60,403 nucleotides of DNA from Asticcacaulis aquaticus (GTDB lineage: Bacteria; Pseudomonadota; Alphaproteobacteria; Caulobacterales; Caulobacteraceae), in contig NZ_JAQQKX010000019.1 of assembly GCF_028550415.1 (NCBI RefSeq), forward strand, positions 1 to 60,403. Reading direction: 5' to 3'. Under the pieces are notes generated by a model, which had not been told where the DNA came from, made no database searches, and saw only the letters and a list, made by a program, of their open reading frames with translations. Position 1 is the stretch's first letter, and each line of letters starts with the position of its first letter. Of this stretch, positions 36,805-60,403 are shown piece after piece. The position numbers and the translations under genes were made by a program.

Positions 36805-37087
36805 CAAATGCGAGGGAGAGTCAAGGTTCACAGTTTGGCAGGGCAACTATGGGTGCGGTAAATGACCGCCGTTGGCCCATTGCGGACCTAATAGCGACTA
36901 AGAGCGGCTGAGAAAGCGGACATTGAATGCGTGATCGATTGAAAACTTGATCATCTGAGCCGGCGTCTTGCCTGTAGGCGCATTCATACGGCTCCGGTCA
37001 ATTAATCAGGCCCGCGGGGACAAGAGACGACGCAGCCCCTCTGTTAGGGTCCGGACATACCATTCGGATCACCCAGAGGATCGTCTC

Positions 37088-38194
37088 ATGACTACTGCTA
37101 CTGTCGACGCCCCGGCGCTTAAGCTGGAAGAAATCACGACCGCTGCCGCATGGCGCGGTGATGTCCTGTCGAAATCCGACTCGTGGGTCTATATGCTGTC
37201 CGAAGCCCAGATCGCCGAACTGGAGGCGCTGGGGACGCGTTTCGTCGAAGAAGACCCCGATCTGCGCTTTGTGCAGAAGGAAGAATATCCGCTGGTCGAA
37301 TGCCTCGACGCGATCAAGGAATGGGGGCGCGACGTCGATTCCGGTCGCGGTTTCGTGCTGGTGCGGGGTTTGCGTACGCACCTCTATTCCGACGCCCTGT
37401 CGGCGGCGATCTATTACATTCTCGGCCTCTATATGGGCGACCCGATCCGCCAGAACGAAAAGGGCGACCTGATCGACTCGGTCTATGCCACGTCGGACAA
37501 GATGATGGACGATCCGACGGCGAAGTCGTCGAAGGTGCGCGACTATCTGGTGTTCCATTCGGATTCGTCGGACGTCGTGTCGCTGATGTGCCTGCGTCCG
37601 GCCAAAGAGGGTGGCGCGTCGTGCCTCGTGTCGGGGGCCGAGATATATAACGAGATCCTGCGTCGCCGCCCGGACCTGGCGCCGCTGTTGTTCGAGCCCT
37701 ATCACTGGGACTGGCGCCGTCAGGACAAGTATGCGCCGGCCGACACCTATACCTCGCCGATCATCAACCTGACCGATGGCGTCTTCTCGATGTATGCGGG
37801 GTCGCTCTATATCCTGACGGCGCAGGAATATGAGGGCGTGCCGAAGCTTACGCCCGAGCAGATCGAGGTACTGGAACTGTTCGATAAGATCACCTACGAA
37901 CCCGGCATGGCCATCGAGATGGATTTCCGCCCCGGCGACATTCAGTGGCTGTCGAACTACGCCGCCCTTCACGCGCGGACCCTTTATCACGACTATCCGG
38001 AGCCTCAGCGCCGTCGTCACCTGCTGCGCTTGTGGCTGAGCCGTCAGGGCGACCGCCCGGTCATCGACGGCTTCGGCAAGAACGGCGTCGTTCAGGTGCG
38101 TCACAAGCCGCGCGAAGGCCAGACCGAAGACAATCTCGGTTTCTTCCGCATCAAGGATGCCCCGGTGCCGCGCCTGCTGGCCGACCACGGATAA
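37088..38194 (+). CDS. TauD/TfdA-family Fe(II)/2-oxoglutarate dioxygenase
   Basis: A 368-residue jelly-roll oxygenase. The facial-triad motif HxD is in YLVFHSDSSDVVSL, the distal His in AALHARTLYHDY, and the 2-oxoglutarate-binding Arg in RRRHLLRLWLS. The N-terminal ~90 residues precede the fold. The class hydroxylates taurine, aryloxyacetates, carnitine-type or other small molecules with succinate and CO2 release; the substrate is unknown here. ATG 37088 has AGAGGA before it. It is followed after 18 bp by a beta-hydroxyacid dehydrogenase, a sensible partner for oxidising a hydroxylated product. Confidence 0.9.
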   Translation: MTTATVDAPALKLEEITTAAAWRGDVLSKSDSWVYMLSEAQIAELEALGTRFVEEDPDLRFVQKEEYPLVECLDAIKEWGRDVDSGRGFVLVRGLRTHLYSDALSAAIYYILGLYMGDPIRQNEKGDLIDSVYATSDKMMDDPTAKSSKVRDYLVFHSDSSDVVSLMCLRPAKEGGASCLVSGAEIYNEILRRRPDLAPLLFEPYHWDWRRQDKYAPADTYTSPIINLTDGVFSMYAGSLYILTAQEYEGVPKLTPEQIEVLELFDKITYEPGMAIEMDFRPGDIQWLSNYAALHARTLYHDYPEPQRRRHLLRLWLSRQGDRPVIDGFGKNGVVQVRHKPREGQTEDNLGFFRIKDAPVPRLLADHG

Positions 38195-40416: not shown

Positions 40417-41253
40417 CTACCCAAAACGAAAAGCGGAAACGGTGGCCTGCATGACCACGTCGGAGAAGATGCGCGCCCCCTTGTCGTCGTCACCGGCACC
40501 GGCGGCGATCATCAGGGGCAGGAGGTGTTCTTCGCGCGGGTGGGCGTTGCGCGCGGCGGGACCCTCGGCCCAGTGGTTGAGCGCGTCGGTGCGCACAGTG
40601 GGGTCGTCCTGCGCCAGAGACGCAGTCAGCCAGTCGTCGAACGCCTTGGACGGGGCCGTGGCCGACGGCGTGCGGAAGGCGTGCATATTGTGATAGCTCA
40701 TGCCCGAACCGACGATCAGGACGCCTTCGTCGCGCAGGCTTTTCAGCGCCTTGCCCGCCGCCATGTGTTCGGCCGGATCGAGATTGCGCTTAAGCGACAA
40801 GGGCACGACCGGGATATCGGCATCCGGGAAGGCCAGCAGGAACGGGATGAAGACGCCGTGGTCGAAACCGCGTTTGGCGTCGGTTTTGGCGGCGATCCCG
40901 GCTTCGGTCAGAAGCTCGACGATGCGGTTGGCCAGTTCGGTCGAACCCGGCGCCGGATAGCTCAGTTCGTAGGTGTGTTTCGGAAAGCCGTAATAGTCGA
41001 AGATCATCTCCGGCTGCGGCGCGGTGGCGGCGGTGAAGACGGCCTCTTCCCAATGACCGGAAATGACGACGATCGCCTTGGGGCGTTCCGGCAGGGTCGT
41101 GGCGAGGTTCTTCAGCCAGTCGGCGGTCTTGTCCCAGGTATTGGCCGGTTCGCCCATCAGCGACCAGTCCATGAAGAAACAGGGCCCGCCACCGTGCGGG
41201 ATGAACAGGGTCGGCTGAGTCGCCGAGGTGAGGGGCTGGGCTGAATCGGGCAT
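40417..41253 (-). CDS. DODA-type (class III) extradiol ring-cleavage dioxygenase
   Basis: A 278-residue member of the YgiD/4,5-DOPA-dioxygenase family. The likely metal ligands are in LFIPHGGGPCFF, VISGHWEEAVF and RGFDHGVFIPFL. PVVPLSLKRNLDPAEHMAAGKAL and VGSGMSYHNMHAFR complete the fold. These enzymes cleave catechol-type rings or act as related lipoamide-type proteins; the native substrate here is unknown. The C-terminus is close to the family end. It is monocistronic or weakly linked to the VOC gene 114 bp downstream. Confidence 0.9.
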   Translation of the reverse strand: MPDSAQPLTSATQPTLFIPHGGGPCFFMDWSLMGEPANTWDKTADWLKNLATTLPERPKAIVVISGHWEEAVFTAATAPQPEMIFDYYGFPKHTYELSYPAPGSTELANRIVELLTEAGIAAKTDAKRGFDHGVFIPFLLAFPDADIPVVPLSLKRNLDPAEHMAAGKALKSLRDEGVLIVGSGMSYHNMHAFRTPSATAPSKAFDDWLTASLAQDDPTVRTDALNHWAEGPAARNAHPREEHLLPLMIAAGAGDDDKGARIFSDVVMQATVSAFRFG

Positions 41254-45216: not shown

Positions 45217-45253
45217 CCCGACCCGGTTCACTCGCCGGGTCGGGTTCTTTTTT
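45217..45253. terminator. Terminator after the MFS gene
   Basis: The perfect 10-bp stem CCCGACCCGG/CCGGGTCGGG (45217-45226 and 45235-45244) is followed by TTCTTTTTT. It separates the MFS gene from the convergent AraC gene. Confidence 0.9.
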
Positions 45254-46205
45254 ATATGCGAGGTTGGCCGGACTGGCGGTGCTTGGACGGCGACAGGCCG
45301 AAGCGTTCGCGGAAGGTTCGGCTGAAATGCGCCGCGTCGTTGAAGCCCCAGCGGAAACAGATTTCCGATACCGACAACTGGGCGTGGACGGGGCTGATCA
45401 GGTCAGCGTAGCAACGCTCAAGCCGGCGCGTTTTAAGGTAGTTGGAAAAGGTCATCTGCGCGCCGGTGAACAGCTTTTGCACATAACGCGGCGAGACGCC
45501 GTTTTCGGCGGCGACCTTGAGCAGCGACAGTTCCGGGTCGTGCAGCAGGGTTTCGATCTTCTGACAGATACGACGCAGGTGAAACGCCCGCGCACCGGCG
45601 GCGCCGCCTTTGGATTCGATGCGGCCGTCGCTGGCCAGACAGGCAACCAGGAATTCGATCATCGACTGCTCGACCGGCTGGAAATGCTCGTCATTGAGCG
45701 CTTCCAGCGTGTCGGCCAGATTGAGCAGCAGGCCGTTGAACATCTTCTCCAGCCCGGACACACCGGGCAGAATCCCGACGCGTTGCCCCAGCGGCGTGAT
45801 CATGCGCGGGCTGACGGCCAGTTGCGGAATCTTGATGAACAACATGCGAAAATCAGAAGTCAGGCGCAGGGTCGAATCGACGCCCGACGCTCCGAAGATG
45901 ATCGAGCGCGGGCTGAGGACCGTGGTTTCCCCGCCGTGGTCCAGTATGCCTTCGCCGCGCGCCAGAACCGCCAGCCAGACGGCGGAGCTATGGTCCGGGT
46001 TGCGCCCGGAATAGGTCTGCGGCGTGGACTCGAGCACGGCGAATTCGCAGCCGAGCGGCGTGGTCGTCACCATGACCGAGCCGCGGACGCGCGACAGCGA
46101 CGACAGGTCGGCCACAGGCAGTTTCAGGCGGCGCAGGACATCCACCCACGCCGCCTGACGTTCCGTTTCCGGAACCGTATCTACCGAGAATTTCCACAAG
46201 GGCAT
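45252..46205 (-). CDS. AraC-family transcriptional regulator
   Basis: A 317-residue regulator. The N-terminal sensing domain (AraC-binding-like, ~1-190) precedes two helix-turn-helix units (~215-310: LSLLKVAAENGVSPRYVQKLF and SVSEICFRWGFNDAAHFSRTFRERFGLSPSKHR). It is clearly paralogous to the N-terminal half of the 774-residue fusion at 55335-57659, sharing the PTS-like spacing GGAAGARA and SPRYVQKLF-type words. Its gene begins 15 bp after the formamidase stop on the same strand, so it is the last gene of that operon and likely controls it. Confidence 0.9.
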   Translation of the reverse strand: MPLWKFSVDTVPETERQAAWVDVLRRLKLPVADLSSLSRVRGSVMVTTTPLGCEFAVLESTPQTYSGRNPDHSSAVWLAVLARGEGILDHGGETTVLSPRSIIFGASGVDSTLRLTSDFRMLFIKIPQLAVSPRMITPLGQRVGILPGVSGLEKMFNGLLLNLADTLEALNDEHFQPVEQSMIEFLVACLASDGRIESKGGAAGARAFHLRRICQKIETLLHDPELSLLKVAAENGVSPRYVQKLFTGAQMTFSNYLKTRRLERCYADLISPVHAQLSVSEICFRWGFNDAAHFSRTFRERFGLSPSKHRQSGQPRI

Positions 46206-46220
46206 GGGGCTAAGCTATGC

Positions 46221-47312
46221 CTATTCGGGATCTTTGACCACGCCCTTGTCGGGGAAGATGTTGCGGTCGATGCGGACGTGAATGCCCTGCGTGCCGTCGA
46301 CGACCTGGGTGATCCCGAAATCGGCGGCAACCGACATCAGCGAATAGGCGTCATTGCGGGACAGGCCCTGATGCTCGGTGAGCAGGGTCAGCATGTCGAG
46401 CGAGGCGTTTTTCATCGCCTTGTTGAGGTCTTCGTCGAAGCCGTGGACGATCCAGTTATTCGGCGTTTCCAGCAGCGGCGACGGGAAGCTGAAGTCCTTG
46501 CGCAGGATGATCTGGAACAGGCAGTTGAGCGAGGCTTCGATAGCGGTGCCCGAAATTTCACCGTCGCCCTGCGAGACGTGCGGGTCGCCGATCGAGAACA
46601 GGCCGCCCTTGACCTGCACCGGATAGTACATGGTCGCGCCCGCACCGATGCGCCAGTTATCGATATTGCCGCCGTGCAGGCCGGGCGGGATGGTCGAGAC
46701 GCGCTGATCGACGGCTGGTGCGACCCCGGCGGTGCCGAGGTGCGGACGGGCCGGGATCGAAATGCCTTTCAGGGCCGGGACGCGGTCGCATTCCGGGCAA
46801 TGGGTGATCGTACCCGGTGTCAGGTAAACGCCCGGAAAATCATAGGCATAGTGCGCCGAGGCCGTATTGGAATTGGGGTTCAGCTCGTAGATGGTGACGC
46901 GTTCTTTCTTGCCGAATTCCTCATAGAGGTGGCCCCAGTTGGCGGCCAGATTCGAGCCGTAATTGAAGCGCGGCGTCATCTGAAAATAGCGCACCTCCAG
47001 CATGTCGCCGGGCTCGGCGCCTTCGACATAGATCGGGCCGGTCATGATGTGGACGCCGGGATTACGGTCGGCTTCGGGCACTTCGGTGAAGATGCGCGTG
47101 ATAGCCTCGTCCATCATCAGCTCAGGCGCGTCGCCGGCATGGTGGGTGACGGCTTCGGCCATGATCATATCGCCGGAGTTGACCGTCAGGGCGGGTTTGA
47201 TCTCAGGGTGGAAATAGCCCCAGTGGATGGTTTCCGGCGTCGCGCGCAGAAAATGCAGGTTCTTGGGCTGGGTGTCCTGACGGGTCTCACCCGGGGTGCA
47301 GATAAAAGCCAT
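46221..47312 (-). CDS. Acetamidase/formamidase family protein
   Basis: A 363-residue amidase of the FmdA type. It hydrolyses formamide or short amides to ammonia and the acid. Landmarks are TPETIHWGYFHPEIKPALTV, TVNSGDMIMAEAVTHHAGD, VHIMTGPIYVEGAEPGDMLEV, the LHGGNIDNWRIGAG segment and the GDPHVSQGDGEISGTAIE motif that contains the metal/catalytic residues. The start at ATG 47312 (MAFICTPGETRQ) is chosen for family alignment. It is followed by an AraC gene 15 bp downstream and preceded by a Rieske oxygenase 95 bp upstream. It shares the same domain as the fusion protein at 55335. Confidence 0.92.
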   Translation of the reverse strand: MAFICTPGETRQDTQPKNLHFLRATPETIHWGYFHPEIKPALTVNSGDMIMAEAVTHHAGDAPELMMDEAITRIFTEVPEADRNPGVHIMTGPIYVEGAEPGDMLEVRYFQMTPRFNYGSNLAANWGHLYEEFGKKERVTIYELNPNSNTASAHYAYDFPGVYLTPGTITHCPECDRVPALKGISIPARPHLGTAGVAPAVDQRVSTIPPGLHGGNIDNWRIGAGATMYYPVQVKGGLFSIGDPHVSQGDGEISGTAIEASLNCLFQIILRKDFSFPSPLLETPNNWIVHGFDEDLNKAMKNASLDMLTLLTEHQGLSRNDAYSLMSVAADFGITQVVDGTQGIHVRIDRNIFPDKGVVKDPE

Positions 47313-47407
47313 GATACAGTTCTCTTGAGAGGGAAGGGTGAGACACGAGGCTCCGATCTCTGTCCGGGATGACCGGACAGAAAGGAGTTTCATGAAGTTT
47401 TAGGGGG

Positions 47408-48616
47408 TTAAGCCGCGCCCTTGACGGCCTTGAGGTGCGGACCGCTCAGACGGTCGAAAGCGTCGCGATAACGCTTGATGAGCCAGCGGTTGAACTGGAT
47501 CTGCGCGCCTTCCTGCCACGAATAGCGGCCGCGCGGGGCGAATTTGGAGCGCAGCCCGACCTGCACCAGCTCATCGACGTGCATGTCCTGATCGATGATA
47601 TGGGTGGCCGAGTTCATGTTCATTTCGAACTTGTGCTGAAAGGTCGGGTGCTTCGACGCGCCCGGCGCGACCAGAGTCCCGGCGTCCTGTTCCATCGTCT
47701 CGGCGCCTGTGGGGCGCAGGATCAGATAGATGACCATGTCGCTCATCATCACCAGCGACAGGGTGGGCGGGATATTGGCGAAGGTCATGCGGTTGCGGTC
47801 GGTCTCGCTCAGGCCGGGGAAGACCGGCATCTGGGCGACCTGCGTTGGGTTGAAGCTGGCGTCCTTGTGGGTCGTGCCGTTGTAGCGCAGGAACCCGGCA
47901 TCGGCAGGGTCCGAGTCCGGGAACTCGGCCAGATCCGACGGCACGAAGTCGTGCAGCGGACCCTGATGCAGCTTCGAGGCGTGGTAGCCGTCGTTATTGT
48001 TCTCGAACATCACCTTCCAGTTCCACGGGAAGGTGCCCGGGGCCTGCGGGCGCAGATCGTCGGCATTGGAGAGGTCGTAGCCCTTGAGCGCCTCGGTCAC
48101 CTGCGTCAGACGCGGAGCCAGCGGTGCGGCGTCAATATCGAAATTGACGAAGATGAAGCCGTTCCAGATTTCGACCGCGAACCGCGTCAGGCCGTGCTCT
48201 TCCTTGTTGAAGTTGCACGTTTTTTCCATAGCCGGAGCGCCGGTCAGCTTGCCATCGAGACCATAGGCCCAGTGATGGTACGGGCACAGGAACATCCGCG
48301 TATTGCCAGCCCCCTCGGCGACCAGCATGGCGCGGTGGGCACAGACCGACGACATGGCATTGATTGCGCCATCTCGACCGCGCGCGATGACGATAGGCTC
48401 GTCCACGATCTTGGTGGTAAAATAGTCGCCGGGGTTTTTCACCCAGGTCTCACGTCCGACGCACAGCCATTCATGGTAATAGAGCGCTTCTTTCTCGAAT
48501 TCGTAGAAGTCGGCGTCGGTATAGCATTCGGGCGGCAGGGTCTCGGCGTCGGCAAGGTCGATATCCGAGGACGCGAACGAGTCGATAAAGGCTTTGGAAG
48601 GTAACTTTGTGGGCAT
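47408..48616 (-). CDS. Rieske-type ring-hydroxylating/N-demethylating oxygenase, alpha subunit
   Basis: A 402-residue terminal oxygenase. The Rieske [2Fe-2S] ligands are CAHRAM...CPYHHW. The mononuclear iron site includes NNNDGYHASKLH, the family D-x2-H-x4-H arrangement. It accepts electrons from a reductase and inserts oxygen into aromatics or demethylates quaternary amines; the substrate is unknown. ATG 48616 has AGGTGA before it. No reductase is adjacent, but a Rieske-type reductase is 10 kb away. The start of a three-gene operon (Rieske, formamidase, AraC) would make an amide- or amine-releasing pathway sensible. Confidence 0.9.
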   Translation of the reverse strand: MPTKLPSKAFIDSFASSDIDLADAETLPPECYTDADFYEFEKEALYYHEWLCVGRETWVKNPGDYFTTKIVDEPIVIARGRDGAINAMSSVCAHRAMLVAEGAGNTRMFLCPYHHWAYGLDGKLTGAPAMEKTCNFNKEEHGLTRFAVEIWNGFIFVNFDIDAAPLAPRLTQVTEALKGYDLSNADDLRPQAPGTFPWNWKVMFENNNDGYHASKLHQGPLHDFVPSDLAEFPDSDPADAGFLRYNGTTHKDASFNPTQVAQMPVFPGLSETDRNRMTFANIPPTLSLVMMSDMVIYLILRPTGAETMEQDAGTLVAPGASKHPTFQHKFEMNMNSATHIIDQDMHVDELVQVGLRSKFAPRGRYSWQEGAQIQFNRWLIKRYRDAFDRLSGPHLKAVKGAA

Positions 48617-48759
48617 GGCGACGATCACCTGAATTCGTCGTTTCGTGGCAGCGCCCCCGGACGTAACTCCATCCGGGCGGATGCCATCTTGAGCTAAGAC
48701 CTAACGCCGGTGGTGGATGCCGGTCTTGTGTTTAGGCGCACAAGAAGTTGTTGCGCGCC

Positions 48760-48859: not shown

Positions 48860-49681
48860 TTAGAACGCCGTCGACAACGACAGGTCGCGCCACTGGTCGA
48901 TGTCCTTTTGAATCTCGGCCATTTCTTCTTCGGCATAGCCCAGCGCGTCGGCCCCCAGCAGCAGATGCAGAGGCGGGTTTTTCATGCCCGCAATGGTCAG
49001 AACGGCTTGCGCCAGCTTATCCGGATCGCCGGGCTCTGAGCCGTTATGCGCCGCCAGGGTCCGCTCCGCCTCGCGCGCCTTGCCGTCGTAGTCGGGGATC
49101 TTGTGCGCGACCACATTGAGCGAGCCCTTGGCGAAATGGGTACGGAACCCGCCGGGCGCGAGATTGGTCACGCCGATCCCAAGTTCCTCGACCTCCTCGG
49201 CGAGGGTCCGGCCAAGGCCCTCCATGGCGAACTTGGTGGCGCCATAAAGGCCAGACCCCGCCCACGGCGCATAGCCCGACACCGAGGTGACATTGATAAT
49301 GTGTCCGGCGCGACGGGCGCGTAGATAGGGCAGGGTGGCCTGAAGCACGTTGATTGCGCCGAAGACATTGACGTCGAAGACCTGTTGGATTTCTGCGGCG
49401 CTGGCCTCTTCGACCGCGCCGATCAGGCCATAACCGGCATTATTGACGACCACATCGATACCGCCGAGCGCGGTTTCGGCCGCGGCGACGGCCAGATCGA
49501 CCTGCGCGCGGTCGGTGACATCCATAAGAAGGCCGAAGGCAAAGCCGGGCTTCAGGGCATTGAAGGCCACCAGATCGGCCTGACCGCGCACGGTGCCCGC
49601 CACAAGGTCACCGCGTTCCAGCGCTGCCTTAGCTATGGCCACACCGAAGCCTTTGGAAACGCCTGTAATAAACCATTTCAT
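48860..49681 (-). CDS. Short-chain dehydrogenase/reductase
   Basis: A 273-residue NAD(P) oxidoreductase of the classical SDR type. Motifs are TGVSKGFGVAIAKAAL (cofactor), VDVVVNNAGYGLIG-like NNAG, the catalytic Ser in NVTSVSGYAPWAGSG, and YGATK (Tyr and Lys). The C-terminus contains the typical substrate loop and a tail TAF. The substrate is unknown. GGAG nine bases before the ATG fixes the start. It is separated from the Rieske gene by 243 bp of repeats, and divergent from the siderophore-type TonB receptor across a gap of 376 bp (49682-50057). That gap holds no gene I can support and should contain both promoters. Confidence 0.9.
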   Translation of the reverse strand: MKWFITGVSKGFGVAIAKAALERGDLVAGTVRGQADLVAFNALKPGFAFGLLMDVTDRAQVDLAVAAAETALGGIDVVVNNAGYGLIGAVEEASAAEIQQVFDVNVFGAINVLQATLPYLRARRAGHIINVTSVSGYAPWAGSGLYGATKFAMEGLGRTLAEEVEELGIGVTNLAPGGFRTHFAKGSLNVVAHKIPDYDGKAREAERTLAAHNGSEPGDPDKLAQAVLTIAGMKNPPLHLLLGADALGYAEEEMAEIQKDIDQWRDLSLSTAF

Positions 49682-50057
49682 CGCTGAATCTCCGTGTTTT
49701 GATTGCGCGCGATCCTCTTCGCAGAGGTCATGGCTGTCTTGACGCGCGGCGAATCAATACTTGCCGACAGATGACGCATCGCGTCCGGCCTCCGGCGTAA
49801 CGGCGTCATCTTGGCAACGGTGGTTTGTCCGGGCGCGCACAGAGCCCCGTCATCGGTCGGCGTGCGGGAGAGGTAAACACAGCCTTAACATGCTGCGCTG
49901 CGTCAATTGCGGCAATTTACAGGGCGCGCCCGCTCAAGACCGCCGGCCGCCGATCATGACACCTTGATGACAACGATCCACCGATCGGAAGCGTTCGCAT
50001 TTCTAATATGGACGGCGGGCTTTTTTGGACGCTCTATGGCCAAGGGGATATGGCACG

Positions 50058-54120: not shown

Positions 54121-55050
54121 TTAGACGGTTTCTGCCAAAAACGCCTCGACTTCGCTCAGGGTCGGGGCGGCATCGGCCGAGGCGCGCGACACCGACAGGG
54201 CCGCCGCCGCCATCGCATAGTGCAGGGCCTCAAGCCACTTCGCACCGCCCGCCAGTTTCGCCGTCAAAGCGCCGTTGAACACGTCGCCCGCGCCGGTCGC
54301 ATCGACGGCTTTCACCCTATGCGCGGGCAGGCGCACCAGAGTCCCTTCGATCAACGCCGCGATACCGCTGCTGCCCATGGTGACCAGAGCCCGCCCTGCA
54401 CCGGTTTTGATCAAGCTGTGCAGGGCCGCGTGCAGGGCGGCATCGCCAAACCCGTCCATGCCGGTCATGCGTTCCAGTTCTGTCTCGTTCGGCGTCACGA
54501 CATCCGCCAACGGCAGCAGCGACTCGACGCCGGGCAGGACCGGGGCGGGGTTGAGCACGGTCAGGATGCCGTGCGCGCGGGCGATCTCCAAGGCGCGCCG
54601 GGTCGTCGCCAGCGGCACTTCCATCTGAACGATCAGCGCGTCCGCCGACGCGATCAGGTCGGTGGCGGCCTCGACGTGAGCGGGCGTCAGGGCGGCATTG
54701 GCTCCCGGCGAGACGGTGATCATGTTCTGCCCGTCGCGCCCGACCAGAATGTGCGCCGTGCCGGTTACCTGTCCTGTGATCGTGCTGATATGGCGATCGT
54801 CGATACCCGAACGACGCAGACGGGCGCGGGCCTCGCTGCCCATCAGGTCGTCGCCGACCGCGCCGACCATGACCGTCTCACAGCCCAGCCGCGCCAGCGC
54901 CATGGCCTGATTGAATCCCTTGCCGCCGATGCTTTGGCGACTGGCCCGCGCCATCAGGGTCTCATTGGGCTGCGGCAGGCGCTCGACCTCCAGTGTGACG
55001 TCGGCGTTGATGCTGCCGACGACGACGATTTTGGGGGCAGGTCCGGACAT
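54121..55050 (-). CDS. rbsK: Ribokinase / PfkB-family sugar kinase
   Basis: A 309-residue PfkB kinase phosphorylating ribose or a related sugar with ATP. The motifs are IVVVGSINADVTLEVERLPQPNET, the ASRQSIGGKGFNQAMALARLG signature, VTPNETELERMTG, and the catalytic DATGAGDVFNGALTAKLA with the base Asp. The family length fits. The gene is isolated: it converges with the esterase and is 284 bp from the AraC-formamidase fusion, on the same strand as that gene. Ribose uptake genes are not in the window, so the substrate could be another pentose or nucleoside sugar. Confidence 0.88.
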   Translation of the reverse strand: MSGPAPKIVVVGSINADVTLEVERLPQPNETLMARASRQSIGGKGFNQAMALARLGCETVMVGAVGDDLMGSEARARLRRSGIDDRHISTITGQVTGTAHILVGRDGQNMITVSPGANAALTPAHVEAATDLIASADALIVQMEVPLATTRRALEIARAHGILTVLNPAPVLPGVESLLPLADVVTPNETELERMTGMDGFGDAALHAALHSLIKTGAGRALVTMGSSGIAALIEGTLVRLPAHRVKAVDATGAGDVFNGALTAKLAGGAKWLEALHYAMAAAALSVSRASADAAPTLSEVEAFLAETV

Positions 55051-55164
55051 GAGGCTCTCTTTTTCAGGCGGTAGGGCCTCAAGTCTTGCCTGCGCCGTCT
55101 GACGGGTCTTGTCCTGACGCGCACAACCTCTTGCTGCGGCATTTTGTGCTAATCAAAGAAAGAA

Positions 55165-55319
55165 TTGACCACGAAAAACACGAAAAGCACGAAAAAGAAG
55201 CTACCTCTTTCTTGCCTGAAGGGCCTTATCGAGTTCGTGGCACATTAAGGATTTTAGCGTTTCGCACGAAAGTTCAGCACAATGAATTTTTTTGTGCTTT
55301 TCGTGTTTTTCGTGGTCAA
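55165..55319. repeat. MITE-like element with 32-bp inverted arms
   Basis: Two 32-bp arms (55165-55196 and 55288-55319) are reverse complements with a single mismatch. Each contains repeated CACGAAAA units. The 91-bp inside has no frame of note. The element sits in the gap between the ribokinase and the fusion gene, ending 15 bp from the fusion stop, where it could end transcripts or shape 3' ends. Confidence 0.8.
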
Positions 55320-55334
55320 AATCTTCTTAAAACC

Positions 55335-57659
55335 CTAATTCAGGAACAGACTTTTTCGGATGATCGCGTGCGCGCCCCAGTTGCCGTTGACGACCTGCGA
55401 GACGCCGAAATCGACCCCCACCGACAACAGCGATACGGCCTCGTCCTCGCTCAACCCCTTGGTGGTCATCAGAAACCGCCGCGCTTTGCGGAAAGCATCG
55501 CGCATGGCCCCTTCGATGGAGGCCTTCTTGTAGATCTCGCTCTGCGCCTTGTCGCCCAATTCGCGCAGGTAGTTGGGCTGCGAAAAGCCGAGCAGCACCC
55601 ATTCGTCCCTGGTTTCGATCAGCGGATAGTCGAGGTCGCGCAGGGGATCACGCTGCGACGCCTTCGGGTGCAGGACGATCTGGATCAGCGCCGTCATCGA
55701 GCATTCGATGGCCGTGCCGCACAGCTCGGAATCGCCCTGTGACGCATGGGGATCGCCGAGCGACAACAACGCCTCGGCCACGTGCACCGGCAGGAAGATC
55801 GACGCCCCGGGGCCCAGCCGCCAGTTGTCGATATTGCCGCCGAAATTGGCGGGTGGCACCGAGTCGACCAGTCCGTCATAGGCCGGGGCCACGGCGACAA
55901 AGCCGAAGTGCGGGCGCACGGGTATTTCGACATTGCGCAGGACGTCGAAATTGCGCTCGATGCTGTCGGGATCGATAATCACGCCCGGATAGTCGTAACG
56001 GTCGTGCCGCGTGCCATAGGGATCGGTCTGCGGCGTATAGCGGAAATTATAGACGGCATGGGCGCAGCAGCGGTCGTGCCCGGTCTCGACTTCGTAGATC
56101 GTGACCACTTCGCGTGGCTTGGGATCTGTCAGCAGGTCGTTATAGTGAAAGCCCCAGTAGGCGGCGACATTGCTGCCGAAGCTGCGTCCGGCGAACTTCG
56201 CATTCCCTGAAGGCCGTGATTTGATGTCGAGAAAGCGCACCTCGACGATGTCGCCGGGTTTGGCACCGGCAATGGCCACCGGGCCGGTGCAGATATGGAC
56301 GCCGAAGCCTTCGCCGGCACCACGCCCGACCGCGGAGGCATCCATCGGTCCGGCGCCTCGGCGTTCGACGGTCTTCTCATCGGTGGTCCAGTGATAGATG
56401 GCCTCGGCTCCCGGATCACCCTCGATCATCCGTTCGTAATCGTCCCCCGCATGGTGGGTCAGGGTCTCGATGGTGACGTAATCGCCCGATTGCACGCGGA
56501 TCGCCGGTTTGAGGTGACGGCTGAGGTGGCCCCAGTGGATCGTCTCGGGCGTCGCGGGCAAAAAGTGGTGGCGGACGCTGTGTTTCGGCAATTCCGGCAG
56601 GCTGTCTTCGGTCACCGGTTCCTCGATCTCCTCATCGGGATCGGGGGTCGACAGGTCTTCGCGAAACCGGCCATCCTTTGCCACGACCGGTCGTCCGCGG
56701 CGCGGGGCTTCGCCGTCGTCGAGGGCTGGCGGCGCTTTACGATATTCGCGCGGCGACAGGCCGTACTGCTCGCGAAAGGCGCGGCTAAACGAAGCGGAGT
56801 CGTTGAACCCCCACTGAAACAGGATATCCGAGATCGATTTTTGCGCGTGCAGCGGGCTCAGGAGGTCCATCCGGCAGCGTTCCAGCCGCCGCAGCTTCAC
56901 ATAATGCCCAAAGCTTTCATTGACGCTTTCAAACAGCTTTTGCAGGTAGCGCATCGAAATGCCGTGCTCGGTCGCCACCTGTTGCAGGTTGAGGTTCGGG
57001 TCCGAGAGGTGCATCTCGATGGTCTGGAACACGCGCTCCAGCAGCATGGCGCGGGCCCCGGCGGACCCGCCCAGCGACTTGACCGGGGCGTCCTCCATCA
57101 GGGCGGTGAGCAGGAACTCCGGCAGGCTCAGTTCGACCGGACGGATGCGGTCGGTATTGAGGTCGTTGATCGTGTCGGCGACCGAACGCAGCATCCCCGA
57201 CAGGATACGGCCTGAGCCGATGTCGCTGGCGATCGGATTGACACCGCCGGGCAGAGGATTGCGCACACGCAGGCTCAGAAAAGCCTTTGGAATCTTGACC
57301 AGCAGGAAGCGGTGATCGCGGTGGAAATCGAGCTGCGCCTGGGCATTACCGTCGCCGAACACGACGCCGCCTTCGCGCACCGGCGTCACCGTACCGCCAT
57401 AGGTGATGTTCATATCGCCTTCGAGCAGCACGACCAGCCACACCTGATCGGCCTGTTCGGTCATGTCGATACGCAGGATTTGCGGGGTCGAGGCGACGCT
57501 GATGAATTCGAGTTTCTGTTGACTTTGGTACGAGGCCAGTTCGCCATAGGCGGTGTCGGCATTCATCGCCTCAAGCTGCATGGATTTGCGTTGCAATGCA
57601 AAACGCCACGAATCCCAGCGTTGCTCCTTCGGATAGGCATTGGTCGTGAAACGCAGCAT
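55335..57659 (-). CDS. AraC-family regulator fused to a formamidase domain
   Basis: A 774-residue two-part protein. Residues 1-205 are the sensing domain and 210-307 the AraC HTH pair (LNLQQVATEHGISMRYLQKLF and ISDILFQWGFNDSASFSRAFREQYGLSPREY). Residues 308-360 are a Pro/acidic linker. Residues 361-774 are a formamidase domain (TPETIHWGHLSRHLKPAI, THHAGDD, FGGNIDNWRLGPG and GDPHASQGDSELCGTAIE). Both halves are paralogous to the separate AraC and formamidase genes at 45252-47312. The start has GGAGG four bases before ATG 57659. It could regulate its own metabolism by coupling substrate turnover to DNA binding. The frame is continuous; a sequencing artefact cannot be excluded. Confidence 0.9.
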   Translation of the reverse strand: MLRFTTNAYPKEQRWDSWRFALQRKSMQLEAMNADTAYGELASYQSQQKLEFISVASTPQILRIDMTEQADQVWLVVLLEGDMNITYGGTVTPVREGGVVFGDGNAQAQLDFHRDHRFLLVKIPKAFLSLRVRNPLPGGVNPIASDIGSGRILSGMLRSVADTINDLNTDRIRPVELSLPEFLLTALMEDAPVKSLGGSAGARAMLLERVFQTIEMHLSDPNLNLQQVATEHGISMRYLQKLFESVNESFGHYVKLRRLERCRMDLLSPLHAQKSISDILFQWGFNDSASFSRAFREQYGLSPREYRKAPPALDDGEAPRRGRPVVAKDGRFREDLSTPDPDEEIEEPVTEDSLPELPKHSVRHHFLPATPETIHWGHLSRHLKPAIRVQSGDYVTIETLTHHAGDDYERMIEGDPGAEAIYHWTTDEKTVERRGAGPMDASAVGRGAGEGFGVHICTGPVAIAGAKPGDIVEVRFLDIKSRPSGNAKFAGRSFGSNVAAYWGFHYNDLLTDPKPREVVTIYEVETGHDRCCAHAVYNFRYTPQTDPYGTRHDRYDYPGVIIDPDSIERNFDVLRNVEIPVRPHFGFVAVAPAYDGLVDSVPPANFGGNIDNWRLGPGASIFLPVHVAEALLSLGDPHASQGDSELCGTAIECSMTALIQIVLHPKASQRDPLRDLDYPLIETRDEWVLLGFSQPNYLRELGDKAQSEIYKKASIEGAMRDAFRKARRFLMTTKGLSEDEAVSLLSVGVDFGVSQVVNGNWGAHAIIRKSLFLN

Positions 57660-57983
57660 CGTGCCTCCCTCACCCTCAGAGAGGGTGTACGCATACCTTC
57701 GGCGTATTTACGCTTTGGGTTCAACAGGTTGTGAAATGTGGACGGCGGGTTTGTTCCTCGGTGCGTCTGACGAAAAACCGCTGTCTCTGTGATCAACAGG
57801 AACCGGCTAAAACGCGTCTGCGTCAATCCGACGCGGCCCTTCGTGCGCGTACAGACAAGTCTTCGTGCGGCGCTGCACCATGAGAGCGGGCCTGAGGCAA
57901 ATTTATGGGGCCTTGGCGACAAGTCAGCCGGAGGCCGTGCGCGCTATAAACAGCCCACTGACTAATTCCAGAGGCGCAGCACC

Positions 57984-58949
57984 ATGACCGATCTGACCGT
58001 GCGGGTTCACGACATTGCCGAAACCGGGGTGCCCGGCGAGGCGGGCTGCGTGCGGGTGTTCGACCTCAGGCCCGATAGCGACGCGCTTCCGGCATTCGAG
58101 GCCGGGGCCCATATCGACGTCGTGGCGCGCGACGGGCTGGTGCGGCAGTATTCGCTGATGAACGCGCCGGGCGAGACGCACCGCTACGTCGTCGCCGTGG
58201 CGCTCGATGCCCAAAGCCGGGGCGGCTCGAAATACTTGCACGACTGGGTCGAGGCTGGTGACGCTTTGATGATCAGCCCGCCGCGCTGCCATTTTCATCT
58301 GATCGAGGACGCGCCGTTTTCGGTCCTGATCGCGGGCGGTATCGGGGTGACGCCCCTATGGGCCATGGCGCAGCGTCTGATCGCTCTGGGGCGGCCCTTT
58401 GCCTTCCATTTCGGGGCGCGCTCGGAGGCGACCGCGCCGCTGCTCGACCTGATGCGACCGCAACTCGATGTGGCGGGTGTGCCGTTTTACACCGTGTTTG
58501 AAAGTGACGGCGGCGCGCGCCTCGACCTTGGCCGCATCTTCGCCGAGGCCCCTGAGGGGACGCATTTTTACGCCTGCGGTCCCGCGGGCATGATCGACGC
58601 CTATATCGCCGCCGGGGCCGGGTGTCCCGCCGGTAAGGTGCATTACGAGCGCTTTTCCGGCGCCGAGGCCCCGGCGCTCGACGGCGGGTTCGAGGTCGAA
58701 CTGGCCCGCACCGGTGGGCGCTATGCCGTCGAGGCGGGCAAGACCATTCTGGAGACGTTGAAGGACCACGGTATCAATGTCCCGCACTCCTGCGCCGAAG
58801 GCATCTGCGGGGCCTGCGAATGCGGGGTGCTGGAGGGGACACCCGACCACCGCGACAGCGTGCTGACCGATGCCGAAAAAGCCGCCGGACGGACCATGAT
58901 GGTCTGTTGTTCCGGCGCGAAGTCCGCCCGCCTTGTCCTCGATCTGTGA
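57984..58949 (+). CDS. Rieske-oxygenase reductase (PDR/VanB type: FMN/NAD plus plant-type 2Fe-2S)
   Basis: A 321-residue electron-transfer protein. An N-terminal flavin-binding barrel (~1-100: FEAGAHIDVVARDGLVRQYSLM) leads to an NAD-binding domain (~105-225: VLIAGGIGVTPLWAMAQRL and FYACGPAGMIDAY). The C-terminal ferredoxin domain has the ligands CAEGICGACECG and a final Cys (VCCSGAKSARL). It moves electrons from NAD(P)H to a Rieske oxygenase, most likely the one at 47408. The ATG follows AGAGG. The next gene, a BASS transporter, starts one base after its stop. The 324-bp gap before it (57660-57983) is divergent from the fusion gene and holds their promoters. Confidence 0.9.
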   Translation: MTDLTVRVHDIAETGVPGEAGCVRVFDLRPDSDALPAFEAGAHIDVVARDGLVRQYSLMNAPGETHRYVVAVALDAQSRGGSKYLHDWVEAGDALMISPPRCHFHLIEDAPFSVLIAGGIGVTPLWAMAQRLIALGRPFAFHFGARSEATAPLLDLMRPQLDVAGVPFYTVFESDGGARLDLGRIFAEAPEGTHFYACGPAGMIDAYIAAGAGCPAGKVHYERFSGAEAPALDGGFEVELARTGGRYAVEAGKTILETLKDHGINVPHSCAEGICGACECGVLEGTPDHRDSVLTDAEKAAGRTMMVCCSGAKSARLVLDL

Positions 58950-59934: not shown

Positions 59935-60403
59935 TGTTGATTTCCACTGAGAAGTGACCCATGTGAAACTCCCCTCGTTGTATGGCAGCGAGGGCTCAAG
60001 GAGTGATAGACATGGCGTTATTGAGCGTCATTCGACGCTGGGCACTTCGGGATCGGATACCGATCCGGGAGATATCGCGACGAACGGGACTGTCGCGGAA
60101 CACCATCCGCAAGTACCTCCGGTCAGATGAGGTTGAGCCTCGGTTCAAAGCCCCTGATCGACCAAGCAAGCTGGACCCGTTTGCGGAGAAGCTGGCGCAT
60201 TGGCTGCGGATAGAATCCGGACGGTCTCGCAAGCAGAAGCGGACCTTAAAGCAGCTTTACAGCGATCTGGTCGCACTGGGATACGACGGGTCTTACAACC
60301 GCGTTGCCGCCTTTGCGCGTGACTGGAAAGCCAATCGCCTGCGCGAACAGCAGACCAGCGGACGGGGTACGTTCGTGCCTCTGGCGTTTCAGGCGGGCGA
60401 GGC
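59935..60403 (+). mobile_element. IS21-family element (left end, truncated by the window edge)
   Basis: The element begins at about 59935 with TGTTGATTTCCACTGAGAAG, typical of IS21 termini, and includes istA reading to the window end. The other end, istB and the target-site duplication are outside the window. It lies 12 bp past the BASS transporter stop. Confidence 0.8.
60012..60403 (+). CDS. istA: IstA transposase, N-terminal part (IS21 family)
   Basis: The first 130 codons are visible, running off the window edge. The N-terminal HTH region LSVIRRWALRDRIPIREISRRTGLSRNTIRKYLRS is typical of IstA, followed by a segment with LYSDLVALGYDGSYNRVAAF. The start ATG 60012 follows AGGAGTG. The catalytic DDE residues are beyond the edge. 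Confidence 0.88.
   Translation, partial: MALLSVIRRWALRDRIPIREISRRTGLSRNTIRKYLRSDEVEPRFKAPDRPSKLDPFAEKLAHWLRIESGRSRKQKRTLKQLYSDLVALGYDGSYNRVAAFARDWKANRLREQQTSGRGTFVPLAFQAGE

Follow-up and report, generated by a model that had tools for sequence, protein, structure and literature searches.

Introduction

The Ada protein joins an AraC-type helix-turn-helix (HTH) region to a methyltransferase and reads DNA damage by methylating itself. PutA, a proline-degrading enzyme that binds promoters, is presented as a trigger enzyme in passages of PMC5052742 and PMC3901225. Here we describe a gene from Asticcacaulis aquaticus that likewise places an enzyme-family domain and a DNA-binding domain in one protein, an AraC-type regulator followed by an acetamidase/formamidase domain. 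It lies in a window of 60,403 nucleotides, by which we mean the whole stretch of DNA analysed (contig NZ_JAQQKX010000019.1, forward strand). The architecture is already named in databases, where the source names of some matches state both functions. No paper in a search of the open-licence literature seems to describe it, and the relevant passages of PMC10781810, from the formamidase literature search, seem not to do so either.

Results

A single reading frame joins an AraC regulator to an amidase

An earlier note on this DNA, made from the letters alone, had proposed one continuous frame joining an AraC regulator, with a sensing domain and two HTH units, to a full FmdA-type amidase. The minus-strand frame at 55335-57659 is uninterrupted from ATG to stop over 774 residues, with no stop in the linker, and the plus-strand reading of the same interval contains stops; the note was therefore right about the frame, having left out the strand. 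Pfam matches to the protein are all above cut-off and comprise AraC_binding_2 (residues 63-168), HTH_18 (229-308; 70 bits, cut-off 33.6) and HTH_AraC (267-308; 46.9 bits, cut-off 26.6), which together give the AraC/XylS two-HTH DNA-binding domain and the sensor that had been described, as well as FmdA_AmdA in two stretches, the best at 600-758. By profile and fold the C-terminal half belongs to the acetamidase/formamidase family PF03069 (Table 1).

Table 1. Features of the fusion gene and its surroundings, in positions of the window.
Feature	Position	Strand	Basis or remark
AraC-amidase fusion gene, 774 residues	55335..57659	-	open frame, Pfam, homologues
N-terminal AraC_binding_2 (cupin-like) sensor domain, residues 1-200	57060..57659	-	
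Two AraC-type HTH units, residues 205-310	56730..57047	-	HTH_18/HTH_AraC, conservation, dN/dS
Variable linker, predicted disordered, residues 311-361, rich in Ala, Pro and acidic residues	56577..56729	-	pLDDT, conservation
RGRP, the invariant RGxP linker motif, residues 321-324	56688..56699	-	alignment of 202 fusions
Acetamidase/formamidase (PF03069) domain, residues 362-774	55338..56576	-	
Family signature GDPHASQGDSELCGTAIE, residues 635-652	55704..55757	-	202 fusions and solved relatives
Candidate regulator site CTTGTCTGTACGCGCAC, between fusion gene and ferredoxin-reductase gene	57843..57859	-	footprint alignment
Candidate site upstream of ribokinase-like gene	55108..55124	+	
Candidate site upstream of Rieske-amidase-AraC run	48725..48741	+	
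Candidate site upstream of the likely start of the TauD-like gene	36967..36983	+	
Weaker candidate site between SDR and TonB-receptor genes	49824..49840	+	score 12.9
Stand-alone AraC paralogue, ~38% identical to the fused AraC part	45252-46205	-	
Stand-alone short acetamidase/formamidase, distant subfamily	46221..47393	-	
Rieske oxygenase alpha subunit	47408..48628	-	in 45/56 alpha loci
Short-chain dehydrogenase (SDR)	48860..49681	-	in 50/56 alpha loci
Ribokinase-like PfkB kinase	54121..55050	-	in 38/56 alpha loci
[2Fe-2S] ferredoxin reductase-like gene, divergent from fusion gene	57984..58949	+	
LigB-type extradiol dioxygenase (DOPA-dioxygenase-like, below the model's cut-off)	40417..41253	-	in 36/56 alpha loci
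TauD-like dioxygenase	36968..38194	+	start probably downstream of listed TTG

The fusion is widely conserved and constrained in both halves

A protein search gave 2126 matches among 7994 scored candidates, the best 120 of which, the window's own protein included, all align over 99% or more of the query and contain both HTH_18 and PF03069. From a genome scan we kept the best 80 of 204 relatives, a choice biased to full length, and a single frame runs across both domains in 79 of these 80 loci, drawn from alpha-, beta- and gammaproteobacteria. The last ~20 residues of one of the 79 (L105) are missing at a contig end, and the AraC half of the eightieth (L121) is cut by a contig end. The record names of the kept loci include Asticcacaulis, Sphingomonas, Novosphingobium, Hyphomonas, Parvibaculum, Cupriavidus, Pandoraea, Oxalicibacterium and Pseudomonas, among others. 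A full-length fusion occurs in 9 of the 25 genomes sampled within the genus (one being that of the window), in 0 of 36 more distant relatives in the genome sample beyond the genus and, as lower bounds because at most two candidates were scored per genome, in at least 4 of 385 genomes of the class and at least 8 of 398 of the phylum. Homologues are thus not always split at residue ~310, and the earlier view of one continuous polypeptide is borne out by the many genomes with the same frame. That an assembly or sequencing artefact joined two genes is a negligible prospect, which we reject since full-length fusions are encoded in the same frame across many separate genomes.

Comparison of the window's gene with seven relatives gave dN/dS values of 0.009-0.046 for the HTH region, 0.018-0.145 for the amidase, 0.033-0.251 for the sensor and 0.01-1.18 for the linker, ratios that are rough because most pairs have dS close to or exceeding 1; both halves are under purifying selection by this measure, again in keeping with one real polypeptide. 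Across 202 distinct fusions, whose alignment also supplied the linker figures, mean column conservation is 0.56 in the sensor, 0.79 and 0.86 in the two HTH units, 0.365 in the linker and 0.81 in the amidase. The AraC-amidase fusion is therefore real, widely conserved and constrained in both halves.

The linker varies from 40 to 90 residues in length and is predicted to be disordered, with AlphaFold pLDDT below 50 at residues 313-359. Within this otherwise variable segment, and in the low-confidence stretch of the model, R321, G322 and P324 are invariant in 202/202 fusions, and position 323 is R in 145 and S in 32. The RGRP form found in the 145 presumably resembles the core of an AT-hook. Among 112 matches to the AraC half, RG.P follows the HTH in 18; eight of these run into the beginning of an amidase domain, and the remainder, either short or with unusual tails, seem for the most part to be cut or frameshifted fusions (P0303, P0314 and P0318 are unsettled). 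Ordinary length, 290-350 residues, is seen in 72 of the 94 matches lacking RG.P, and the motif occurs in 0 of 21 stand-alone AraC genes of the fetched loci. RGxP is missing from ordinary stand-alone AraC relatives.

The neighbouring AraC and amidase genes are not the unfused form

The earlier note had also pointed to a split AraC and amidase pair nearby, and the pair exists; it lies on the fusion's contig within ~12 kb in 8 of 9 same-genus genomes with a fusion, and on another contig in the ninth. It is not the unfused form, and simple read-through of the pair was rejected as an origin, because the gene order, amidase-AraC, is opposite to that of the fusion and the amidase belongs to a distant short subfamily. 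In a tree of AraC domains the fused ones do not form one clade (6 changes), and stand-alone AraC genes, the window's neighbour included, nest among them. Such nesting is compatible with the amidase having been lost later or with repeated fusion, and we have not built on it because the tree has long branches and an unsure root.

The amidase half retains the family signature

We aligned the amidase domains of 86 fusions with those of 118 long and 67 short solo enzymes and afterwards extended the comparison to the full set of 202 fusions, taking the signature as defined by conservation across solved members and scoring 18 signature positions of our own pick. Fifteen of the 18 are invariant in 202/202 fusions (D393, D406, H455, H584, G608, N609, D611, R614, D636, H638, D643, E645, E652, E682 and D750), and H403, D415 and Q641 are each kept in 201. 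The GGNxD and GDxHxxxGDxE elements are thus present, with residues 608, 609, 611, 636, 638, 643 and 645 unchanged throughout, the first G of GGNxD (607) being A in 11 of 86 fusions; the signature residues are also found in solved PF03069 relatives. Loss of all catalytic residues, which the earlier note had named as a result that would refute its observation, was not seen in the core signature, though H402, H690 and D758 vary. Position 402 is Q in 31/202 fusions and H in 117/118 long and 61/67 short solo enzymes, H690 is retained in only 19/202 fusions and is near-invariant in solo enzymes, and D758, near-invariant in solo enzymes and N or D in solved relatives, is N in 186/202. Where short and solved amidases have the histidine of HGGN, fusions carry F or Y and most long solo enzymes carry F or T; its replacement is a trait of the whole long subfamily as judged from the alignment. 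On these residues, the amidase half is probably catalytically working.

The description as a full FmdA-type amidase does not hold. The NCBIfam FmdA equivalog model (NF045496, cut-off 500 bits) scores the fusion at 60 bits and the neighbouring solo amidase at 79, and the nearest solo relatives of the fusion are mostly Tat-leader proteins like 3b9t. In a quick maximum-likelihood tree the 59 fused amidase domains that were sampled all fall into a single clade (SH-aLRT 97), nested inside the long solo enzymes and far from the short ones, the window's neighbour among them. Two unfused rows fall in the same clade: P0124, which is probably cut because its sequence starts inside the linker, and P0146, perhaps a fission. 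Among 108 listed solo relatives of 395-500 residues, 86 have at least 440, and a loose Tat-like motif occurs in 82 of the 108, all of them among those 86. Since most of these longer relatives carry such a motif, the AraC half would occupy the place of an export signal.

A 17-bp motif recurs at promoters of the surrounding catabolic genes

An alignment of Asticcacaulis and Sphingomonas sequences from upstream of the fusion showed a conserved CTTGTC..GCAC block. With at most 3 mismatches, the footprint CTTGTCTGTACGCGCAC matches 4 times in the window against 0.16 expected, a number reached by 0 of 100 shuffles, and 10 times in the whole genome (4.0 Mb), with 4 matches in the 60-kb window and 6 elsewhere; a control pattern has 4. 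A degenerate motif, TTGYCNRWWNCGSCAC, was weak and was set aside (21 matches where 11.0 were expected, a count reached by 1 of 100 shuffles), as was a regular-expression version with few matches; the exact footprint performed better. We then built a weight matrix from 11 sites of source loci and tested it on loci left out of its building, counting sites in the orientation opposite to the gene and using 400 permuted matrices as controls. Matches were found in 47 of 461 upstream regions of held-out alphaproteobacterial loci (permuted 4.0 +/- 3.2, maximum 20) and in 8 of 58 of beta- and gammaproteobacterial loci (permuted 0.46 +/- 0.82, maximum 5), with 0/400 permuted matrices as high in either group; same-orientation matches numbered 27 and 0. 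A looser scan gave 64 intergenic matches against 13 for a reversed-matrix control in the alpha group and 37 against 22 in the beta/gamma group, but the motif claim rests on the stricter held-out test and on loci with no other AraC-domain gene.

In loci without another AraC-domain open frame in the covered flanks, as judged by HMM, we found 25 matches in 18/36 alpha loci and 8 matches in 8/21 beta/gamma loci, counts that 0/300 permutations equalled in either group and that are not independent, because many loci are close relatives; the other 18 and 13 loci have no site above threshold. A blastp version of this test gave 18/36 and 8/23 loci with a site, having missed the AraC/GyrI-like genes of L120 and L123 that the HMM detected. 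The 17-bp motif thus marks promoters of the surrounding catabolic genes, including those of loci without another AraC-domain gene in the covered sequence. In held-out loci, sites directly upstream of the fusion are uncommon: the corresponding cluster of regions gives 1/60 in alpha and 3/29 in beta/gamma loci, and all three of the latter precede solo long amidases. The beta/gamma matches lie ahead of solo amidases or a transporter gene rather than ahead of the fusion. Nine further stretches, six of them from one family (eight are new, and L132 is the contig of L090), have no site scoring over 12 within 500 bp of the fusion or a solo amidase. Of the five loci without a found fusion, one carries a site upstream of LigB in the rule orientation (score 16.8), and borderline sites (12.2 and 12.0) occur in the other orientation in two, so stand-alone AraC paralogues may read the motif too.

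The fusion lies in a conserved catabolic neighbourhood

The catabolic cluster of the window (36968-59922) holds TauD-like, LigB dioxygenase, MFS, Rieske, amidase, SDR, TonB-receptor, carboxylesterase, ribokinase-like, [2Fe-2S] reductase and SBF-transporter genes, joined in sphingomonads by LLM (RutA-like) and isochorismatase (RutB-like) genes. With flanks covered to at most 10 kb, the 56 alpha loci also contain a short amidase (46/56), a RutA-like LLM oxygenase (39/56), a glyoxalase-like gene (38/56) and a RutB-like isochorismatase (37/56). The 25 beta/gamma loci contain a solo short amidase in 16 and a short or long one in 21, with an ABC transporter in some. In several genomes the fusion has as its direct neighbour a solo amidase from the same long subfamily; in one genome of the same phylum (L130, 5211-9279) the two are divergent neighbours. 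Together with the shared 17-bp motif, the conserved neighbourhood supports a functional link between the fusion and its neighbours. One same-family genome (L133, 4617-8699) has Rieske, LigB, short amidase and stand-alone AraC genes, and no fusion was found in it; given this locus, the pathway may exist without the fusion. Just downstream of the fusion gene, at 55156-55328, lies a 41-nt inverted repeat, 88% complementary with 91 nt between its arms, which we suggest is a small MITE-like element because the 50 matches listed for the genome include related sequence at some 17 further places. The open frame 59982-60401, at the window's end, may be the start of an IS21-type IstA transposase.

Gene content suggests an amide substrate of aromatic or N-heterocyclic type that may include a ribose part. 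We considered riboflavin/lumichrome breakdown because a published cluster (PMC12746152) has amidases, a Rieske enzyme and an extradiol dioxygenase; as the pathway there differs by its use of a P450 and other enzymes, this assignment is a guess by analogy.

Discussion

We propose, at a probability of roughly 0.53, that the fusion is a local AraC regulator of its catabolic cluster joined to a probably working amidase, and that it behaves in the manner of a trigger enzyme. In this single and presumably cytoplasmic protein, the AraC half would bind the 17-bp motif and control the cluster and, in beta- and gammaproteobacteria, the neighbouring solo amidase as well, while the hydrolase half would turn over, or at least bind, an amide of the same pathway. 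We hypothesize that the amidase site is coupled to the regulator, which would respond to occupancy or turnover there in the way of trigger enzymes, and the invariant RGxP may take part in this coupling or in DNA contact. Regulation of neighbouring genes by the fusion is supported, if indirectly, by the distribution of the motif.

The amidase half might instead be a retired enzyme kept as a ligand-binding sensor, with catalysis left to the neighbouring solo amidase. A solo amidase does lie near most fusions, in several genomes one of the long subfamily adjoins it, and the changes at 402, 690 and 758 are biased toward fusions; we nevertheless judge this reading somewhat unlikely, since essentially all 202 fusions keep the core signature, which goes beyond what ligand binding would be expected to demand, and N at 758 is also present in solved family members. 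A second view, in which one chain carries two independent functions, the AraC sensor reading the ligand and the amidase being fused for co-expression only, could draw on the complete N-terminal AraC sensor domain and on the long, predictedly disordered linker, across which the halves could work apart. The invariance of RGxP within a drifting linker argues against it, as does the retention of the fusion across alpha-, beta- and gammaproteobacteria, though fissions or truncations (P0146, P0249) seem possible, and we hold this view to be rather unlikely.

The motif might belong to the stand-alone AraC (45252-46205) or to another regulator, the HTH region of the fusion having other targets. Both AraC proteins are present in the window, a site was seen in one of the five loci without a found fusion, and held-out loci rarely have one upstream of the fusion gene itself. 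Against this stands the enrichment of the motif in loci without another AraC-domain open frame in the covered flanks, where a more distant gene is possible; on balance we doubt that another regulator accounts for it. Returning to the trigger-enzyme-like proposal, a bolder form of it, to which we give tentative and limited credence, is that the fusions are a family of enzyme-regulators that arose when an AraC regulator took the place of the Tat leader on a once exported amidase, that occupancy or turnover at its site sets promoter binding via RGxP, and that the protein both measures and consumes the intermediate, thereby resetting the signal. More generally, should DNA binding be gated by the amidase site, the known DNA-binding enzymes would gain a simple feedback device made of one protein. 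The family comes with a predicted operator and a short, unvarying linker motif and has at least 202 natural variants; it also marks a catabolic cluster of Rieske oxygenase, LigB dioxygenase, RutA/RutB-like enzymes, amidases and a ribokinase-like kinase in sphingomonads and Caulobacterales.

Among described proteins, FeaR-like AraC regulators share the fusion's AraC_binding_2 sensor and two HTH units and differ in having no C-terminal extension of RGxP linker and amidase domain; FeaR (NF007243) is the best NCBIfam match of the fusion, at 122.4 bits, below the cut-off of 199, and the fusion is not a FeaR equivalog. The long acetamidase/formamidase subfamily, represented by PDB 3b9t of Methylobacillus flagellatus, is like the fusion in fold and core signature at ~58% identity, and where 3b9t, named a twin-arginine signal protein, has its leader, the fusion has its AraC half. 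Ada also joins an AraC-type HTH to an enzyme, though an unrelated one. Trigger enzymes such as PutA, in the accounts cited above, likewise combine an enzyme and a DNA-binding function in one protein beside catabolic genes; PutA's domains are unrelated to those of the fusion, which, known from its sequence, adds a complete AraC regulator with a sensor of its own.
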